Source: Rubripirellula sp. (GTDB taxonomy: Bacteria > Planctomycetota > Planctomycetia > Pirellulales > Pirellulaceae). Taken from it: a stretch of DNA of 64,000 bases. Positions within the stretch are counted from its first letter, which is position 1. Every line of letters begins with the position of its first letter. The stretch lies in contig JAPKCI010000007.1 in NCBI GenBank assembly GCA_028823035.1, forward strand, positions 1 to 64,000, read 5' to 3'. The position numbers and the translations under genes were made by a program. The notes beneath the pieces were generated by a model, which saw nothing but the letters and a program-made list of their open reading frames with translations, made no database searches and had not been told where the DNA came from. Of this stretch, positions 53,952-64,000 are shown piece after piece.

Positions 53952-55997
53952 CTATTTCTCGCCACTATAGCTTCGGACAGACATCTGCCAAAATTCGTAA
54001 CCGTATCGTTCACGTACCACCGTCATTCTCATGACATCGGTGGTACCGTCGGCAATCCTTAGTCCCATCAGATCACGGACCCGATCGCCAATGTCCACTT
54101 CCCTGCTGTAGCCCATTGCACCATGGGCGCGCATCGAGGCATCTGATGCAGCAAGAGCAATTTCGACCGCCTCTGCCTTCAGTCCATTCACCAATGGTGT
54201 TGCCGCCTTGTAGTCGCCTTGGTCAATCAATGCGGCTGCCTCTCTGGCTAAAGCAATCGCCATTTTCAGTTTCGTAAGGTATTCGCCGATGGGCTGCTGC
54301 AAGTGGGTGAAGCGACCGATGGGGCCGCCAAACGCATCTCGCGATGCAATGCGTGAGGCCATCTGGTCGAGAGCTGCCTCGCCACAGCCGATCGCTGCAG
54401 CCGCTTGCATCAATCGCCAGTATTGAAAGTGCTCAAGGAAAATCTTTCCGCCGTCGCCGTCTTCACCAAGAAGATGCTCGTCGCTCACAAACATGTCATC
54501 GAACTCCAAGCCACCGAAAGAGTTTCCGGTCAGTCCGTGTGCGTAGCGGTCAATGACCTTCAATCCCGGATGGTCGATCGGTATGAGAAATGCTGATCGT
54601 GAGCCGGCTGCGCCTTCGGAAGCAAGCGTATATAGGACGACATGAGTAGCCTCACGAAGACGAGCGTTCCAAAGTTTGCTACCCGTAAGTTTGAAACCTT
54701 CACCGTCACGAACTGCCGTGCTTTGCATCTGCTTCATGTCGGTTCCGGCATCGGGCTCAGTGATCGCTACTGCAACGTACGCGTTGCCCGCGATGATGCC
54801 CTTCAGGACCTGGTGGGAAATGGACGAATCAGACTTGGTGAGCGGACGCCCGTGCGCACCACCGACAACGTCACGCAGGTTCAAATTAAGCTTGCCGGCA
54901 TGGCGGAAGATTTCGAGCATGTTCACTGCTGACCAGCCGCCACCACCGATCTTTTTTGGTAGGTCGAGCCCCGGCAGTCCGATGGCCGATCCCTCTCGCC
55001 GCCAGGCAGTAGGAGATGAAAACTCGCTGGTTGCCCGCAAACGTTCTGCTAACTGATCCATCTGATCAATCGTGGATTCGATTGACACTCCGTTTTCGCT
55101 TTGATTGTATTTTTCGTCTGAACTTAAGCGAATAGTAAAGACAGTATTCAATTCATACGTTTGGTTCGTTCTGTCGACACCAACCGGGCTGTGAAAAAAT
55201 ACCTGATCTTTAGGTGTGTCCGCATCGCCGCGGTATTCGATCGTGAATGTGCGTTTCCCAAGTGGGCTGCTAGGGCTCAGGAATGAAAACGAACCGTCAC
55301 TCGTTTTTTTCAGTAGCACAAAATGACGTCCACGAACTGTGCCATTTTCCTGCGTCACGGTGTAGGCAAGAATTTTGATTTCGCCCTTGGTTGTCGACAG
55401 GTCCGGTCCGTCCGTCGCGGACCACGCTTTTCCAAAGGCCAGATGTGGACTGTTCGGAGCGGATACCGTTGAGATTTCAACCGGTTTTAGATCTGGATCA
55501 CTGCAAGTAAATGCCAGTACATCAACAAAACGCTCGTTGCTAATGCTCCCTTCGTTCAATTCCGGTTTGAATTCAAACAATCGAAGAGCTGAACGGTGTG
55601 GAAGGGGATCCAATCGCTGATAGGCCATGACGCGTATTGCCTGTGCGGCTATCAGCGCTGCTGAGATCGGGCATGCGCCACCACCGGCGGGGTCAATCAG
55701 CTTATCAAGTTCGCCCTGAGCGACGATTGTCGGTGATGCTTCGCTGTGTTGTTGCTGGACTCGGCTAATCGCATCGTTAGCCGTTAACGGAAGTCTTCCT
55801 TCGCTAGCAATGCTGGGTGGCTCTTGCCCGTTCCCCCACAAACAGAGGGCAACACTGATGAATAGGGAAATGAGCAACAACATCGGTAACTGGTTGATAT
55901 GGCCTTTCGCGTTGAATGGGAAGCGGAAGCAACGGAACCTATCATCCACGTTTGCTTGAAATTTAGTGTTGTGTTCTGGCAGTTTTCGAGTTGTCAT
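53952..55997 (-). CDS. Membrane-anchored protein with C-terminal acyl-CoA dehydrogenase domain
   Basis: A 681-residue protein in one frame. Residues 1-35 are polar and basic, then a single membrane helix (about 38-54, LPMLLLISLFISVALCLW). Residues 60-300 form an unknown domain with GGGACPISAALIAAQ (Cys109) and RGRHFVLLKKTSDGSFSFL (His225), a spacing loosely recalling papain/C39-like peptidases. Residues from about 310 are a nearly full acyl-CoA dehydrogenase: ITEPDAGTD (413-420), LTGNSFGGLEFDDMFV, and the closing DGTTDVMRMTVVRERYG. That family is normally cytoplasmic and uses FAD. Here the domain order implies either a cytoplasmic C-terminus with an N-out anchor or an exported dehydrogenase. 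Assembly error seems unlikely because the frame is continuous, but it cannot be excluded. Confidence 0.82.
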   Translation of the reverse strand: MTTRKLPEHNTKFQANVDDRFRCFRFPFNAKGHINQLPMLLLISLFISVALCLWGNGQEPPSIASEGRLPLTANDAISRVQQQHSEASPTIVAQGELDKLIDPAGGGACPISAALIAAQAIRVMAYQRLDPLPHRSALRLFEFKPELNEGSISNERFVDVLAFTCSDPDLKPVEISTVSAPNSPHLAFGKAWSATDGPDLSTTKGEIKILAYTVTQENGTVRGRHFVLLKKTSDGSFSFLSPSSPLGKRTFTIEYRGDADTPKDQVFFHSPVGVDRTNQTYELNTVFTIRLSSDEKYNQSENGVSIESTIDQMDQLAERLRATSEFSSPTAWRREGSAIGLPGLDLPKKIGGGGWSAVNMLEIFRHAGKLNLNLRDVVGGAHGRPLTKSDSSISHQVLKGIIAGNAYVAVAITEPDAGTDMKQMQSTAVRDGEGFKLTGSKLWNARLREATHVVLYTLASEGAAGSRSAFLIPIDHPGLKVIDRYAHGLTGNSFGGLEFDDMFVSDEHLLGEDGDGGKIFLEHFQYWRLMQAAAAIGCGEAALDQMASRIASRDAFGGPIGRFTHLQQPIGEYLTKLKMAIALAREAAALIDQGDYKAATPLVNGLKAEAVEIALAASDASMRAHGAMGYSREVDIGDRVRDLMGLRIADGTTDVMRMTVVRERYGYEFWQMSVRSYSGEK

Positions 55998-57144: not shown

Positions 57145-57602
57145 TAGAGAGACGGGTGGGTTGGGACATGGGAGATCTGGACGACGGGGTGCGGTCGCAA
57201 TCTGTAGAGTGTTTGGTCTCTAGCCAAACATGGGGTTGTCGGAGGAAATCCAATTTGGCTCCGCGAATGAGAGCGGGAAGGGCAAAATACCTGCTAGTAG
57301 TCACGAGGTTCGGCGTCGCCAAATTCGTTTGCGGGGGGGGCAGAGCGGACAGCTGGAAAATTGAATAGTTGAGGTAGCCGAACTCGTTTTTTGTCGATTG
57401 CAGGAGTCCAGCAAAAGCGGGGCGACGTGTGAGGGCTTCTTGTGAATTCCCGTAGGTTGTGGATTTTACGCAATCTTGTCGTTCAGTGTCACCGATGCAA
57501 ATTTGGTGGCCATTCCTTCGGGTACAATGTTGTCCCCGCCCCTATCGGCTGCGCTTTCGAATAAGTGATTTACGCAGCGATCAATCATCGGTCCTCCCTC
57601 CA

Positions 57603-60600
57603 ATGAAAAAAATGACAAACCGTCTAGGCAGCGTCGCAGCGTGGTGTTTACTTTTTTTCACGCTCGTTTCCGCTGTCGATGCCACGCGGTCGTTAGCTGA
57701 CGAGAACGACAACGCGGCGGCTCGCGCTTACAACGGCGCCGCCGCTCTTCAAAACGCCGGTTTGCACGTTCGGGCGGCACAGAAATGGACCGAATTTATC
57801 TCGGCGCATTCCAAGGACGAACGTATCGAGCGCGCGCATTTCTACCTCGGCATTTGTCAACTGCGCAGCAAGAAATTTTCCCAAGCTGCTGAAACCTTTA
57901 AAAAGGTTCTCAACACATGGCCTAAGTTTGCACAGGCCGACGTAGCCCAGTACAACCTCGCACTGGCCCGATACGAACAAGCAATTGCTTCGAACAGCGA
58001 GGATCAGTTCCGTCAGGCCGCAGGGGAGTTTTCAACAGTAGCGGCAAAGTTCCCCAAGAGTGATCAGGCCGATGACGCGCTTTACTTTCAGGGGGACTGT
58101 CTGTTCAGATCCGGCGACGTCGCGGCTGCTCTTCCCGCCTATCAAAAACTCATTGACCAATACCCCAACAGTGGCCAACTCGCGCGAGCCTACTATGATC
58201 TTGGCATCGGACAGCAAGAGCTGGAAAAGCCCGCCGAGGCTATCAAGACATTTCAAGCCTTTCTGGCAAAATCCGAATTTGCGACTGATGAACTTACGCC
58301 AGAAATACGTTTGCGTTTTGCGATCTGTCTCCATCAGTTGGATCAATTCGACAAAGCGGCGGTTGAGTTTGACGCGGCATCTAAAATTCCTGAGTTTCCG
58401 CTCGCGTCGTTCGCTCGTTTCCGTTTGGGACAAACGAAAATCGATCAGGGTAAACTGGCCGAGGCGGCACAAGTGCTCGCAGAAATTTCTAAAAAATATC
58501 CCGACAGCGAATACCGATTCGAAGCACAGAAAATTGCCGGGCGATGTTTTTACTTGACCGAGAAATACAAAGAAGCCGAGCAAACGCTGCGGGATATCGC
58601 GAAGGCGAATGAACCTGCTGCTGCCGAAGCAGCCTATTGGTTGGGGAAGACGCAGTTAAAGTTGAATCAACCTGACAAGGCTCTACAAACTCTTCAACAG
58701 GCAATCAGCCGGCATGGAACCAGCAATTTTCTTGCGCACTTGAAACTGCTCCGTATCGACATGTTGTACGAGCTTCCCCAACGACGAGTTGAGACGCTTC
58801 CACTTTACGAAGCTTTCCTGCAAGAATTTCCAGCTCATGAACTTGCGTTTCAGGCTCGCTACATGGCTGCATTGTCCGCGCTCGGCCAATCAGAGTTTGA
58901 CAAAGCACGCAAATATGCACAGGCCCTGCTGAGTGACTCAGGCTCGTTCGATTTGTTAAGGCCGGGTGCGATGTACATCGCGGCTGAAGCATTCTTGCTG
59001 GAAGATTCAGAAAATGCTGATGATCGCGCAAAGGCTTTGTTGTTGTACCGCGAACTGATCATCAAGTATCCGGATCACGCACGGGCGGCTCGCAGCAACT
59101 TACGGATCGGTTGGTGTTTGCACAGGGACAAGAAGTATGACGAAGCGATCCATCATCTCGCGGCTTTGCGTGAAAAATTTGATCGTGATCAACAACTTCC
59201 CGAGGCCCAGATGTTGATCGGACAGTCGCACGCTGCTTTATTGCGACATCGCGAAGCGATTCAAGCGTTCGACGCCGCGTTTGCCGCCAACAATAAATGG
59301 CTGCGTACCGATGAGGTTTTGATTGCCGCCTCACGGTCGCACTCGGCGGTAGACGAACACGATGCTGCGATCGGTAAGCTTCGAAAACTGGTCGATACGC
59401 TTCCCAGTAGCGAGCAGAAGCCACAGGCGCTTTATCGACTCGGAGAAATCACTCAGCAAATTGGTAAGCTTGAAGAAGCAAGCCAGTGGTTTAGCCAGGT
59501 TGCTGACAAATACCCCGACTCTCCCTTGGCAAGTCCGGCAATGCACGCGATGACGACGGTGCGTTTCAACCAGGAAGATTATCCAGAAACCATTTCTTGG
59601 GCCGATCGAGTCATCAAGGGATCGGCAGACTCGAGTCTCAAACAACGTGCTCGTTTGATGCGAGGGTTGGCCTACCAGCGTACGAAAAACAATGTCAAAG
59701 CGATCGAAGACTTAACTGCCTACGTCAAGGATCCTGCGGTTGCCAGTGAAGCGATGACCGCTGGGCACATGTTAGCATTGGCCTACATTTCACAGAAGCA
59801 ATTTCCACAGGCGCGAAAGGCACTCGATGATCTGCTCACGTCCAAGCCGGACTTTGAGGAAGCAGACAAAATTTACTACGAGCTTGCGCACGCACTTCTG
59901 GCCGAACCGACCCAGGCGACTGAGGCGGCGACGACGTTTCAATTGCTTGCTGAAAAGCGACCCGACAGCGACCTCGCGCCCGAGAGTTGGTTTCGTGTTG
60001 CGCAGTACCAAGAGGCTGTTGCCGGGAATTCTTCACAAACAGAGGATGTGAATCGGGCGTGGATGACTGCCGAATCGGCGCTGAAAAATGGATTGGTAAA
60101 GGCAAAGGAGAAGGACCTTCGTGAAAAGCTGCAATACAAATTGGGCGATGTGCAATTCCAGCAGGGCCGGTATGCCGAGGCCGCGAAATCGCTTGCAGTG
60201 CAGCTCGCCGAGTTCCCAACCGGCATTTATGCCGCACCGGCAAACTTCATTTCCGCCGAATGTTACTTTCGACAGAATATGTATGAACAGGCTCTTCCGC
60301 TGTACGTCCAAATGGTCGACGCTCCGTTTCCAGAAGGTGACCAGGACAAGGCCGGTCAATATCGCGCAGAAGCATTGTATCGGGCCGGAAATTGTGCGGC
60401 AGAACTTAAACGGTGGCAGGAAAGTGAGCAGCACTTCCGCAGGTTGCTCGACCAACACAAAGAATTTCCGCAGCGTGATGAAGCTATGTACGGTTTAGGT
60501 TACGCATTGCAACAGCAGAAAAAGGTAGATCAAGCGATCGACAGTTATCAAAAACTGACTCAACAGAGCGAGACGGAGACTGCGGCAAAGGCGAGATTCA

Positions 60601-60845
60601 TGATTGGCGAGATCGCTTTCGGTCAGGAGCAGTATTCAGATGCAATCGAGCATTTCCTGCTGGTGACGGTCGGATACCCCTACGAGTCGTGGCAAGCATT
60701 GGCTCGGTACGAGACAGCGAGATGTTTTTCGGAACTGGGCGACAAGCAACGATCGATTGAGACTCTCAAAGAGATGATTCAAAAACATCCCAAGCACGCG
60801 CGAATCGCCGACGCGAAAAGAATGCTCGCGGAGCAAGATAAATGA
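57603..60845 (+). CDS. Very long exported TPR protein (CpoB/YbgF-like)
   Basis: About 1080 residues from the ATG at 57603, which starts a signal peptide (MKKMTNRLGSVAAWCLLFFTLVSA). The remainder is a solenoid of many tetratricopeptide repeats of the Tol-associated type (AHFYLGICQLRSKKFSQAAETFKKVLNTWPK, ALYFQGDCLFRSGDVAAALPAYQKLIDQYPN, AMYGLGYALQQQKKVDQAIDSYQKLTQQ). Proteins of this class, such as CpoB, sit in the periplasm with the Tol complex, but they are far shorter (about 260 residues). It overlaps the next gene by four bases and so is translated with the proton-channel genes. Confidence 0.92.
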   Translation: MKKMTNRLGSVAAWCLLFFTLVSAVDATRSLADENDNAAARAYNGAAALQNAGLHVRAAQKWTEFISAHSKDERIERAHFYLGICQLRSKKFSQAAETFKKVLNTWPKFAQADVAQYNLALARYEQAIASNSEDQFRQAAGEFSTVAAKFPKSDQADDALYFQGDCLFRSGDVAAALPAYQKLIDQYPNSGQLARAYYDLGIGQQELEKPAEAIKTFQAFLAKSEFATDELTPEIRLRFAICLHQLDQFDKAAVEFDAASKIPEFPLASFARFRLGQTKIDQGKLAEAAQVLAEISKKYPDSEYRFEAQKIAGRCFYLTEKYKEAEQTLRDIAKANEPAAAEAAYWLGKTQLKLNQPDKALQTLQQAISRHGTSNFLAHLKLLRIDMLYELPQRRVETLPLYEAFLQEFPAHELAFQARYMAALSALGQSEFDKARKYAQALLSDSGSFDLLRPGAMYIAAEAFLLEDSENADDRAKALLLYRELIIKYPDHARAARSNLRIGWCLHRDKKYDEAIHHLAALREKFDRDQQLPEAQMLIGQSHAALLRHREAIQAFDAAFAANNKWLRTDEVLIAASRSHSAVDEHDAAIGKLRKLVDTLPSSEQKPQALYRLGEITQQIGKLEEASQWFSQVADKYPDSPLASPAMHAMTTVRFNQEDYPETISWADRVIKGSADSSLKQRARLMRGLAYQRTKNNVKAIEDLTAYVKDPAVASEAMTAGHMLALAYISQKQFPQARKALDDLLTSKPDFEEADKIYYELAHALLAEPTQATEAATTFQLLAEKRPDSDLAPESWFRVAQYQEAVAGNSSQTEDVNRAWMTAESALKNGLVKAKEKDLREKLQYKLGDVQFQQGRYAEAAKSLAVQLAEFPTGIYAAPANFISAECYFRQNMYEQALPLYVQMVDAPFPEGDQDKAGQYRAEALYRAGNCAAELKRWQESEQHFRRLLDQHKEFPQRDEAMYGLGYALQQQKKVDQAIDSYQKLTQQSETETAAKARFMIGEIAFGQEQYSDAIEHFLLVTVGYPYESWQALARYETARCFSELGDKQRSIETLKEMIQKHPKHARIADAKRMLAEQDK

Positions 60846-61753
60846 ATGAATTCAAAACCGTTAAAGAGTCACCCATGAGATCCAAGATGAAACGATCGGC
60901 TGGCACCGTCATGACCATGTCCCTACTGCTGGTTTTCATTTTGGCAGCCAGCTGGCAGACGTACGCACAGGTTCCGCCTGTTGCTGGCGAAAAAGTGAGT
61001 GAAGATGGTTTGACCGAGGATAAGATGGTGAAGGCGGAACAGGCGACCTCCCAGAATCTTGCGACCGATAAGTCGCTTGGCGGTATGATTGTCAGCGGTG
61101 GTGTTTTGAACGTATTCTTTTTCGGAGTACTCGGAATCTTTTCTCTCTGGGCCGGGACCGTCGTTCTGGAACGCATGTTCAACTTGCAGCGGGAAAAAAT
61201 GCTGCCCACATCTTTCTCGATTCAATTCAATCAGATAGTTGAAGTTCCACAAGCCGCACCGGACAGGTTCAAGCAGCTTTGTGAAGGTGGCAAGTCGCCT
61301 GTCAGTCGCATATTGCATGCCGGAGTGCTTCGCTCCGGTCGCAGCGTTTCGGAAGTTGAAAAGGCAATGGAGGATGCTGCGGCCCGTGAGATGGCGGCAC
61401 TGCGAGCGCGTTGTCGGCCCTTGAATGTTGTCGGAAACATCGCACCACTGGTCGGGTTGTTGGGAACGGTCGTGGGGATGATCATTGCCTTTCAAATTTC
61501 TAGTCAAGAGGGATTGGGCAAGGCCGAGCGGCTCGCCGAAGGAATTTATCTGGCGCTGATGACGACCGCTGCGGGCCTGACGATTGCGATCCCTTGCCTG
61601 TTGTTTGCATCTTGGTTTTACGCTCGAGCCGAACGATATATGTGTGATATCGACGAGTGTTTGATGGAAGCGATCCCCAGTTTTGCACGCATGGAGGGCG
61701 TCGATGGCAACGCACTCCGTGACACTGCTGGCGTTGACAAGTTGACAAGTTGA
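60842..61753 (+). CDS. MotA/TolQ/ExbB proton-channel family protein
   Basis: A 303-residue protein starting inside the TPR stop codon (ATGA overlap). Membrane segments are at about 22-42, 86-108, 196-218 and 236-260. The first is cleavable-signal-like and followed by a periplasmic stretch, a layout seen in some ExbB proteins. The channel core includes IAPLVGLLGTVVGMIIAFQ and LALMTTAAGLTIAIPCLL, carrying the conserved Thr residues. With ExbD it converts the proton gradient into mechanical force acting across the periplasm. Confidence 0.93.
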   Translation: MNEFKTVKESPMRSKMKRSAGTVMTMSLLLVFILAASWQTYAQVPPVAGEKVSEDGLTEDKMVKAEQATSQNLATDKSLGGMIVSGGVLNVFFFGVLGIFSLWAGTVVLERMFNLQREKMLPTSFSIQFNQIVEVPQAAPDRFKQLCEGGKSPVSRILHAGVLRSGRSVSEVEKAMEDAAAREMAALRARCRPLNVVGNIAPLVGLLGTVVGMIIAFQISSQEGLGKAERLAEGIYLALMTTAAGLTIAIPCLLFASWFYARAERYMCDIDECLMEAIPSFARMEGVDGNALRDTAGVDKLTS

Positions 61754-61833
61754 GCCCACGAGAAAGTTCTGCCACGCGAAGCTGTGAGCTAGTCTGTTCC
61801 TGAACCAAACCCCGAACAACATCGAGCGCACCG

Positions 61834-62265
61834 ATGCGAATGCCACTTGACGGTACCGAAGGCGAGGGGATGAACCTTACGCCACTGATTGATGTTGTTT
61901 TTCTGTTGCTGATCTTTTTTCTGGTTGCGACACGATTCGACAAAGAAGAATTGGAATTGTCGATACGTGTCCCCGACGTTTACAAGGCTCGACCGGTGTC
62001 GGCCGGGCCGCGGGAGGTTGTCGTCAACATCACTGCGGATGGTGAATACGTGGTGGTAGGAGAGACAGTCAGCGAGCCCCAGTTGCGTAAGATGATTGGT
62101 TCCTTGGTCGTCAAAAACCCGTCAGATCTTTCCACGGTTCAGGTTCGCACCGATATGGATGCGAAGGTCCGATACGCAATGGCCGTCGTGGGCATGTGTG
62201 AAGAACAGAATATCAAACACACATTCTCGGTCCTGGAAAAACAATCTGACGGAGAGGGCCAGTGA
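61834..62265 (+). CDS. ExbD/TolR family biopolymer transport protein
   Basis: A 143-residue protein with a short cytoplasmic N-terminus, one membrane helix (LTPLIDVVFLLLIFFLVAT) carrying the essential protonatable Asp20, and a periplasmic domain with VVVNITADGEYVVVGE. It lies 80 bp after the channel gene, and its stop overlaps the GTG start of the next gene by four bases. It partners with the ExbB-like protein. Confidence 0.95.
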   Translation: MRMPLDGTEGEGMNLTPLIDVVFLLLIFFLVATRFDKEELELSIRVPDVYKARPVSAGPREVVVNITADGEYVVVGETVSEPQLRKMIGSLVVKNPSDLSTVQVRTDMDAKVRYAMAVVGMCEEQNIKHTFSVLEKQSDGEGQ

Positions 62266-64000
62266 GAGACGCAACGGCACCAGATCGGCGCAACCGCAAG
62301 TGGTGGTTCCGACCGCTGTTCATCGTGTTCGCTTGCCTTGTTGTAGTGATCGCGTTCGCGTTGATGCCTCGATATCAATTGCAGTTGGTTACCGTTGATG
62401 ATGCCCACCAATGGTCCGGTAGTGAGTCGCCTCCACAACGGCAAATCGTGTGGCAGCCGGCAACGCCCTTTGCCCCAGTGGGCAATGAAGTTCCGCTTGC
62501 CGAGAGTCGTATTCGGCCCCAAATTACTGACAACGGAAACGTTCTTTTTTTCACTGCACGTAGCGACGATGACCAGTACGGTATCATGCGTTCAGAGCAG
62601 GTAGATGGCCAGTGGACGGTACCTGAAGCGGTCGATGAACTAAATTCACCGAGCAACGATATCGGCCCGGTTGTGCGTGCCGATGGCCAGATCCTTTATT
62701 TGTACTCTGACCGCGACGGCGGTTTCGGCGGTATGGATTTGTATGTCTCCCTTCGAGACGGTGATCGCTGGAGCAAGCCGATCAATCTCGGAGCACGGAT
62801 CAATAGTCCGTCGCATGAATATGATCCAGCGATTTCTCCGGACGGATCGCGACTTTACTTTTCCAGCAACCGCAGCGATGCGATCAATCGTCAAATGGCC
62901 AGCGAACAGTACGATTCGCAGTCGGATCACTGGACCACAACGCTGCGGACCGATTTAGGTAATCGAACGTTCGATCTCTACGTTTCACACTTGGACGATG
63001 CAACGAAAGAATGGAATCATGCCTCGCCGTTGACTTCCTTGAATACGACGCAATACAACGAAGGATCTCCATTCGTTTCGAGCGATGGCGCTTCATTGAT
63101 TTTTGTTTCTGATCGGCCCGAGCGTCACGGTGAATCGCAAAACTATGATATTTATCGTGCCAGGATTGTTGATGGACCTCTGACCGCTGAAAACCTCGGG
63201 ATTGGGATTAATTCGTCAGCAAACGAGGTCGAGCCTGCGTTGGCGAAAGCAGGATTTCAGATCGTCTTCTCGCGATCAATTGATCAAGAATCCATACGTT
63301 ATGGATTGTTTCAAAGTACGGCCAAAGAGGTTCTACGCACGGCACAGTGGGAATCGTCCCGCTGGCAAGCTTTTAGCGCTGCCGTCGTGTCGACTTTCAA
63401 ACAACTGTTTCAGCGTTTTTGGTGGATCCTATGCGTGCTTGCTTTGTTGGCGCTTGCGATTTGGCTGATACGGCAAATGACGATTCGGAGAATTGCAATT
63501 CCCGGTTTTTTGATCGCGGCGATTACGATCCACTTCTTGTTGGTGACCAGTTCCTTCTATGTTTTCTTCCAAGAAGAGATCTCGTATCGGCTGCACAAAA
63601 TGTTCGAGGAAGAAACGGTTCTTGCTAGTGAAGTGTTGTTTCCGTCGTCGGCACCCAATTTGGAGAAACAACCGAAATTTGATCAGGTCGCCGACTTGGA
63701 AATGCCAGAGTCTGTCGATCCGATTGAGGTATCCAAGCAGGTTACCGAATCGGTTCAGACCAACGTTCAGCCGGTCGAACTTGCAATGCCGCAGATGCCA
63801 GTGAGGATCACCGGAGATCTGCCCTCTGACGCTGTTGTTGCGACGGTTTTCGTCCCTCCAAAACCAGATGATCAAGAAAGGAAACTCACTCGCCGTACTA
63901 CTCAGTCTGCACTTGTCTCACCGGATCGCGTGGTGCTTGAACAGACCGTTGCGGTAAACCCGTTGCAAGCGAAACCGATTGAATCGATCAACCCGGAAGT
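62262..64000 (+). CDS. Membrane-anchored PD40/TolB-like beta-propeller protein, partial
   Basis: The GTG start overlaps the ExbD stop (GTGA); the frame is open for about 579 codons to the window end. An N-terminal helix (LFIVFACLVVVIAFALM) is followed by a large domain with five PD40-type blades (ITDNGNVLFFTARSDD, VRADGQILYLYSDRDGGFGGMDLYV, ISPDGSRLYFSSNRSD, VSSDGASLIFVSDRPE, LAKAGFQIVFSRS). Two further helices (WWILCVLALLALAIWLI and FLIAAITIHFLLVTSSFYVFF) come next, then a Pro/Val/Glu-rich stretch. TolB of the classical Tol system is a soluble propeller; here the propeller is tethered and placed beside the proton channel. C-terminus not seen. Confidence 0.85.
   Translation, partial: MRDATAPDRRNRKWWFRPLFIVFACLVVVIAFALMPRYQLQLVTVDDAHQWSGSESPPQRQIVWQPATPFAPVGNEVPLAESRIRPQITDNGNVLFFTARSDDDQYGIMRSEQVDGQWTVPEAVDELNSPSNDIGPVVRADGQILYLYSDRDGGFGGMDLYVSLRDGDRWSKPINLGARINSPSHEYDPAISPDGSRLYFSSNRSDAINRQMASEQYDSQSDHWTTTLRTDLGNRTFDLYVSHLDDATKEWNHASPLTSLNTTQYNEGSPFVSSDGASLIFVSDRPERHGESQNYDIYRARIVDGPLTAENLGIGINSSANEVEPALAKAGFQIVFSRSIDQESIRYGLFQSTAKEVLRTAQWESSRWQAFSAAVVSTFKQLFQRFWWILCVLALLALAIWLIRQMTIRRIAIPGFLIAAITIHFLLVTSSFYVFFQEEISYRLHKMFEEETVLASEVLFPSSAPNLEKQPKFDQVADLEMPESVDPIEVSKQVTESVQTNVQPVELAMPQMPVRITGDLPSDAVVATVFVPPKPDDQERKLTRRTTQSALVSPDRVVLEQTVAVNPLQAKPIESINPE

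Follow-up and report, generated by a model that had tools for sequence, protein, structure and literature searches.

The systems nearest to the locus described here are TonB-ExbBD, TolA-TolQR and the recently reported transducers tipped by a vWA domain. According to the available part of PMC12905483, TonB and TolA share the SHLS motif (Ser-3X-His-6X-Leu-3X-Ser), the essential motor residues include the TolQ Thr and TolR Asp positions, and the ExbB contact network includes Ser, Pro and Trp. The vWA-tipped class (Williams-Jones et al. 2025, PMC12204202) combines, in the accessible portion of that article, tetratricopeptide repeat (TPR), tolQ-like and tolR-like genes with a transducer made of an SHLS helix and a linker; it is reported from planctomycetes among others, and the order TPR-motor-transducer is given for the PVC group. 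The window analysed here (the first 64,000 bases of the 69,218-base contig C2 of Rubripirellula sp.) ends within an operon for a giant TPR protein, ExbB, ExbD and a membrane protein with a PD40 beta-propeller and, beyond the window, an alpha/alpha toroid. We put at roughly two thirds the probability that this operon encodes a trans-envelope force transducer driven by the proton motive force, similar to TolA and TonB but with a different tip and a member of neither the Tol-Pal nor the Ton system. If so, its way of exerting force across the envelope has been little described. A preliminary description of the window had suggested a force-transducing complex whose output differs, and the gene set and the motif found in the third transmembrane (TM) helix of the transducer lend support to that suggestion.

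Operon layout and architecture of the transducer

The features of the operon, all on the forward strand, are the following.

57603..60845 (+), giant TPR gene with ATG start at 57603, 1080 amino acids; presumed periplasmic scaffold
60842..61753 (+), exbB, ExbB/TolQ-type motor subunit of 303 amino acids with an N-terminal extension
61834..62265 (+), exbD, ExbD/TolR-type subunit of 143 amino acids
62262..64000 (+), transducer ("propeller") gene, first 579 of 1202 codons, the rest lying beyond the window
62436..63335 (+), PD40 beta-propeller spanning roughly residues 59-358, placed between TM1 and TM2 and presumed to lie in the periplasm
63414..63470 (+), TM2, residues 385-403
63492..63563 (+), TM3, about residues 411-434, putative TonB/TolA-like motor-contact helix, A420-x3-H424 in the window protein
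63564..64000 (+), first part of the low-complexity linker, which runs to about residue 850
C2:64830-65861, outside the window, C-terminal alpha/alpha toroid of about 340 amino acids, SQHop_cyclase_C-like

The four-gene layout proposed at the outset was borne out, with the TPR, exbB, exbD and propeller genes forming a single operon. The end of the TPR gene at 60845 overlaps the exbB start at 60842 by ATGA, exbB and exbD are separated by an 80-bp gap, and exbD overlaps the GTG start of the transducer gene at 62262 by GTGA. An alternative in-frame GTG start at 57459 would lengthen the TPR protein to 1128 amino acids. The transducer gene is complete at 62262-65870 of the contig, i.e. it extends 1870 bases beyond the window, and is followed up to 69218 by a fatty-acid desaturase and a RIO kinase gene. 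No tolA or pal had been visible in the window, and a tolA/pal set directly downstream, looked for by extending the contig, did not appear: neither gene is present in the operon or in the 3.3 kb after the transducer gene (no genome-wide search with a TolA model was made). Elsewhere in the window, a reverse-strand gene at 53952-55997 carries acyl-CoA dehydrogenase domains preceded by about 300 residues to which Pfam assigned no domain at the limit applied.

The Pfam assignments of the motor and propeller are clear (MotA_ExbB, 98.7 bits, cut-off 22.9; ExbD, 68.2, cut-off 25.4; PD40, 94.9, cut-off 20.9). The TPR protein, with a signal-peptide-like stretch at its N-terminus (by eye), matches many Pfam TPR models (TPR_6, 214 bits) and the ybgF repeat model in 11 stretches (299 bits, cut-off 90.1), a score that may only register TPRs, and it reaches 102.8 bits with the CpoB model against a cut-off of 383. 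Its length had been given as about four times that of CpoB, correctly so, since the CpoB model spans 263 positions against 1080 residues.

The transducer (1202 amino acids) is arranged as TM1, PD40 propeller, TM2, TM3, low-complexity linker and alpha/alpha toroid. The linker, of about 416 residues, contains 9.6% Pro, and 70% of it is P, S, T, A, Q, E, D, R, K, G or N. Only PD40 and SQHop_cyclase_C score above cut-off in Pfam; no TonB_C or TolA C-terminal domain and no vWA domain was found there. Three hydrophobic segments (residues 18-36, 385-403 and 411-429) agree with the earlier view of a propeller protein with at least three membrane helices that is not free in the periplasm. That view had missed the toroid, which lies outside the window, and the TonB/TolA signature of TM3. 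Since TM3 of the homologues carries the SxxxH signature, the "missing TolA" is probably the propeller protein itself, with the TolA role probably carried by its TM3, linker and toroid.

The third TM helix and its motor

The TM column counts were taken from an alignment of 43 propeller-form homologues (loci are labelled L below). His424 is the only residue conserved at 90% or more across the three TM helices (His in 40 rows, Asn in 3). Column 420 holds Ser in 35 rows, Ala in 7 and Gly in 1, and column 431 holds Leu (25), Phe (11), Ser (4), Met (2) or Ala (1), so that the Ser, the His and roughly the Leu of SHLS fit the family, position +7 being Leu or Phe in 36 of the 43. Trp occupies column 434 in 34 rows, and column 435 is mixed. 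Residue 404, between TM2 and TM3, is Arg or Lys in 39 of the 43 rows, and the expected direction of TM3 is therefore that of the TonB helix, outward from the cytoplasm. As a control, SxxxH was counted in 11 of 1136 TM segments encoded by other genes of these loci, in 0 of 47 TM1 and in 0 of 50 TM2 helices.

The motif is found beyond this alignment. [SA]xxxH is present in the corresponding helix in 22 of 27 proteins of a phylum-wide sample (by eye), and in the operon form that lacks the propeller and has three TM helices the His is present in 19 of 21 cases, Tyr and Asn taking its place in the remaining two. Among the toroid proteins (124, reduced to 120 by dropping 4 duplicates; 7 without a scored TM segment), the last TM helix contains the His in 105 of 113 and SxxxH in 91 of 113; the eight missed by the script are L054, L057, L069, L105, L112, L114, L115 and L154, of which L105 actually has SIAFH. 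As judged from sequence, the TM3 motif would thus mark a TonB/TolA-type motor helix at the level of the family, where the pattern is SxxxH, the window protein having AxxxH.

The motor subunits keep the corresponding residues. In the alignments, ExbB T209 and T242 fall on T145 and T178 of TolQ, and ExbD D20 on D23 of TolR. In 90 family ExbBs (both samples joined, with no identical transducer seen between them), T209 is invariant (90 of 90), while T242, S101 (in TM1) and P251 (aligned with P187 of TolQ) are each found in 89; relatives are present, so these counts refer to sequences and not to independent events. A single clade of the ExbB tree (support 1.0) unites the 16 three-TM operons, and the motor therefore follows the transducer type. 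The Rubripirellula genome has 11 MotA_ExbB matches, and one of its other ExbB loci (L015:1754-7230) adjoins a DUF4159 protein and TPR proteins. In Rhodopirellula baltica, exbB RB12053 and exbD RB12055 are salt-induced according to the available part of PMC2754498; their correspondence to this operon is not assumed.

Recurrence of the gene set and exchange of the tip

The order TPR-ExbB-ExbD-toroid protein recurs in two main forms, one with the propeller (the window, L047, L049) and one in which the propeller is missing and three TM helices stand at the N-terminus; the same genome carries a sister operon of the latter form at C129 (L014). The toroid is a common planctomycete module with 10 loci in this genome, and the whole transducer used as query gave matches in all 60 genomes searched, among the matches listed mostly through the toroid. 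A scan of genome contigs with an alignment gave 206 relatives, of which 80 were kept (a single-protein scan gave none), and its loci include bins labelled Blastopirellula, Fuerstiella, Planctomycetaceae and Phycisphaerales. At the phylum level, a search with a strict limit (E 1e-103; 2 of 392 genomes) was superseded by profiles. The three-TM profile, which drew mainly on relatives from the same order and is liable to miss distant forms, matched 13 of 392 genomes, including, among the genomes listed, all 9 of the same family and all 3 others of the order. The profile of the propeller and TM region matched 23 of 392, namely this genome and 22 outside its class.

Neighbouring genes were identified from BLASTP matches to the proteins of the window at E 1e-3 or 1e-4, a criterion that can overlook diverged genes. 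Around the propeller matches of the other genomes, 24 of 25 loci hold both ExbB and ExbD and 21 of 25 a related TPR gene; those with missing partners (L187, L199, L205, L208) are contigs of 3.4-7.5 kb. Among 46 non-redundant propeller proteins selected by the query, 40 have TPR, ExbB and ExbD within 9 kb and 43 have both ExbB and ExbD; the six without the full set comprise three with ExbB and ExbD, one with ExbD alone and two with none (L101, which begins at a contig end, and L048). The four genes are thus co-conserved, as had been anticipated, and a propeller gene generally separate from exbBD is not what the sampled loci present. The arrangement as a local oddity is ruled out by the recurrence in 24 of 25 loci. 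L168:3-16479 contains two TPR-ExbB-ExbD-propeller/toroid operons in tandem, the first TPR gene being cut by the locus start, and binning errors may explain why the operons L091 and L103 lie in contigs that bear the titles Candidatus Kuenenia and Candidatus Nealsonbacteria. In L205:1-6175 and L208:1-3439 the PD40/toroid genes stand in adjacent pairs, with one L208 gene placing the toroid before PD40.

A closer look at L189, L190 and L191 revealed propeller, TM2 and SxxxH helix kept beside ExbB and ExbD, with a different tip after the linker. The C-terminal region of about 230 residues consists there of a CarboxypepD_reg-like domain (below cut-off) and a beta-rich domain. The latter is conserved (VHHLGDN...SQFQ) and replaces the toroid in L189-L191 but follows it in L122 and L133, where the toroid and both domains are present and CarboxypepD_reg scores above cut-off. 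Variable tips on a motor-side module that stays constant are to be expected of a force transducer.

Several observations weigh against a TonB/TolA-like transducer. L189-L191 belong to one genus, so the change of tip may be a single exchange. The full SHLS motif is not kept across the family, its last Ser (+11) being found in 5 of 43 rows, and the window protein itself keeps only the His, with Ala at -4, Ser at +7 and Phe at +11. Asn replaces the motif His in L112, L114 and L115. In the phylum sample, 5 of the 27 proteins lack a demonstrated helix. It was not located in L198 and L199, one piece from L208 is a fragment, and the remaining two (the second L205 gene and one L208 gene) join PD40 and toroid without an SxxxH helix in the part read. 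The D-box-like strand pattern is not enriched, the windows nearest the helix not scoring above later ones, and some Phycisphaerales members have a beta-prone stretch after the helix (by eye). On the motor side, S101 and P251 may or may not correspond to the contact-network Ser and Pro of PMC12905483, and Trp is not one of the four most frequent residues at any of the ExbB TM1 positions listed (90 ExbBs). Finally, no ExbB or ExbD was found at L048 (4296-7673), a propeller-type locus with 5.8 kb of upstream sequence, nor near 45 non-propeller toroid proteins, 30 of them with at least 4 kb upstream; L088, which has TPR, ExbB and ExbD as neighbours, is not among the 45. Many of these toroid proteins carry the SxxxH helix; their motors may be shared ones, or the helix may have another significance.

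Stand-alone toroid proteins (L067-L086, L116-L120, L210, L212, L213) mostly have a single SxxxH helix and no ExbBD found nearby, and are possibly further transducers that share motors.

Predicted folds, proposed function and comparison with known systems

The propeller model is well defined (pLDDT, the predicted local distance difference test, >90 in most 10-residue blocks, <50 in the loop 222-232); five three-stranded repeats were read, a provisional guide to the number of blades. Its best PDB match by Foldseek is TolB (E 9.8e-13), but VIA-align places GH62 glycosidases (Z 21.1) ahead of TolB (Z 17.8). The TolB profile gives 18.7 bits (cut-off 343), and by this model the propeller is not TolB; the PorE and CHU_0125 models give 82-84 bits (cut-offs 600 and 620). 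On ExbB and ExbD, the tolQ and tolR models give 71.8 (cut-off 221) and 41.4 bits (cut-off 127.3), and the part-by-part equation with Tol made initially is not supported, the cut-offs for tolQ, tolR and TolB being missed. It nevertheless has to be considered whether the operon is a strongly divergent Tol-Pal system that still serves outer-membrane constriction and stabilisation at division, with the toroid in place of TolA domain III and the TPR protein in that of CpoB. Its genes are of the Tol-Pal part types (TPR, TolQ-like, TolR-like, PD40 propeller) and TolB leads the Foldseek matches. The job may also be vacant in this genome, given that TolB is above cut-off in none of 20 genomes, this one included, and that its two OmpA-domain matches lie on other contigs, one beside MotA and one in a 389-residue frame. 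The operon, however, lacks Pal, a free TolB and the C-terminal domain of TolA, VIA-align prefers GH62, the propeller type is patchy over the phylum (the 23 genomes above), and this genome has two versions of the operon; we consider such a system unlikely.

The toroid fold was modelled on the homologue L097 (Blastopirellula sp. NAT61 by its title, with 71% identity to the query in the best segment) with a pLDDT of 93. It matches squalene-hopene cyclases (Foldseek E 2.3e-6; VIA-align Z 26.8 to 2sqc_A over 287 residues at 3.1 Å) as well as sugar epimerases and GH76 (Z 21-23), and its core is highly conserved. These likenesses would suit a membrane-tethered enzyme of terpene-cyclase or glycan type with ExbBD as a mere neighbour, as would the many toroid proteins with no ExbBD found nearby. 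DxDD, which we take to be the catalytic motif of squalene-hopene cyclase, occurs in only 4 of 120 toroids, at scattered places and not in the window protein, so cyclase chemistry is unlikely. With ExbB and ExbD adjoining nearly all sampled propeller loci and the tip of L189-L191 exchanged while the motor helix stays, a tethered enzyme appears quite improbable.

The glycan-active matches of both models (GH76, sugar epimerases, GH62, GH43) could instead point to an energised uptake machine, in which toroid and propeller would handle polysaccharides or proteins and the motor would drive their import, a TonB-like job without TonB-dependent receptors. In this genome (523 contigs, 99.6% complete) the profiles of TonB_C, TonB_2 and Plug, the TonB-dependent plug, gave no match, an absence by profile that is not proof, and no canonical Ton partner was thus found for its motors; over the 20 genomes TonB_C occurs in 6, TonB_2 in 3 and Plug in 8. 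The operon holds no transport gene, though, fold likeness is no proof of function, and squalene-hopene cyclases fit the toroid better than glycan enzymes do, which leaves an uptake machine rather improbable.

The preferred reading, a force transducer outside Tol-Pal and Ton, can be set out as follows. By homology, ExbB and ExbD would form the inner-membrane motor as pentamer and dimer. TM3 would dock on ExbB via SxxxH, as in TonB and TolA, the long low-complexity linker would cross the periplasm, and the predicted toroid would grip a partner in the outer envelope. The propeller, which TM1 and TM2 would keep close to the inner membrane on its periplasmic side, may interact with wall, glycan or TPR protein and set the timing of motor engagement, with the TPR protein as periplasmic scaffold by analogy with CpoB. 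Proton flow would then turn ExbD within ExbB and pull the linker, so moving or releasing the toroid's partner. A broader proposal, which we advance only tentatively and hold to be less probable than its opposite, is that toroid-tipped proteins make up a third, modular class of ExbBD transducers beside TonB/TolA and vWA that entirely replaced Ton and Tol-Pal in such planctomycetes, with exchangeable tips on the TM3 SxxxH module, a subset (dispersed over the phylum) with a wall-sensing, motor-gating propeller at the membrane face, and an envelope task specific to planctomycetes, such as macromolecule uptake. If true, at least two motors of this genome gain a partner, the 2025 report of ExbBD-like motors driving tips other than those of TonB and TolA extends to a second, unrelated fold, and one histidine becomes a direct genetic handle on motor coupling in planctomycetes.

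Compared with TonB-ExbBD and TolA-TolQR, the operon shares the ExbB/ExbD-type motor genes, the SxxxH TM helix, the long low-complexity linker and a globular C-terminal tip. It differs in that the motor helix is the third TM helix and not the first, a propeller precedes it and an alpha/alpha toroid forms the tip; moreover, SHLS is not conserved at its last Ser, and the D-box pattern is not enriched. The propeller is a PD40 beta-propeller like those of TolB, PorE and CHU_0125, but here lies within a membrane protein and scores below the cut-offs of their models; the toroid has the predicted fold of squalene-hopene cyclase (L097 model), but lacks DxDD in 116 of 120 cases. No toroid-tipped ExbBD partner is described in the titles and abstract beginnings of the open-licence PMC literature, among the matches listed, and neither "squalene" nor "toroid" occurs in the main text of PMC12204202. 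The closest precedent, as far as the accessible portion of that article goes, is the vWA class, with which this operon shares the TPR-motor-transducer order and a tip unlike that of TolA or TonB. Where the vWA class has a vWA tip and often two tolR-like genes, the present operon has a toroid, one ExbD and an added propeller, and the toroid tip, the propeller insertion and the exchange of tips go beyond the description of that class given there.

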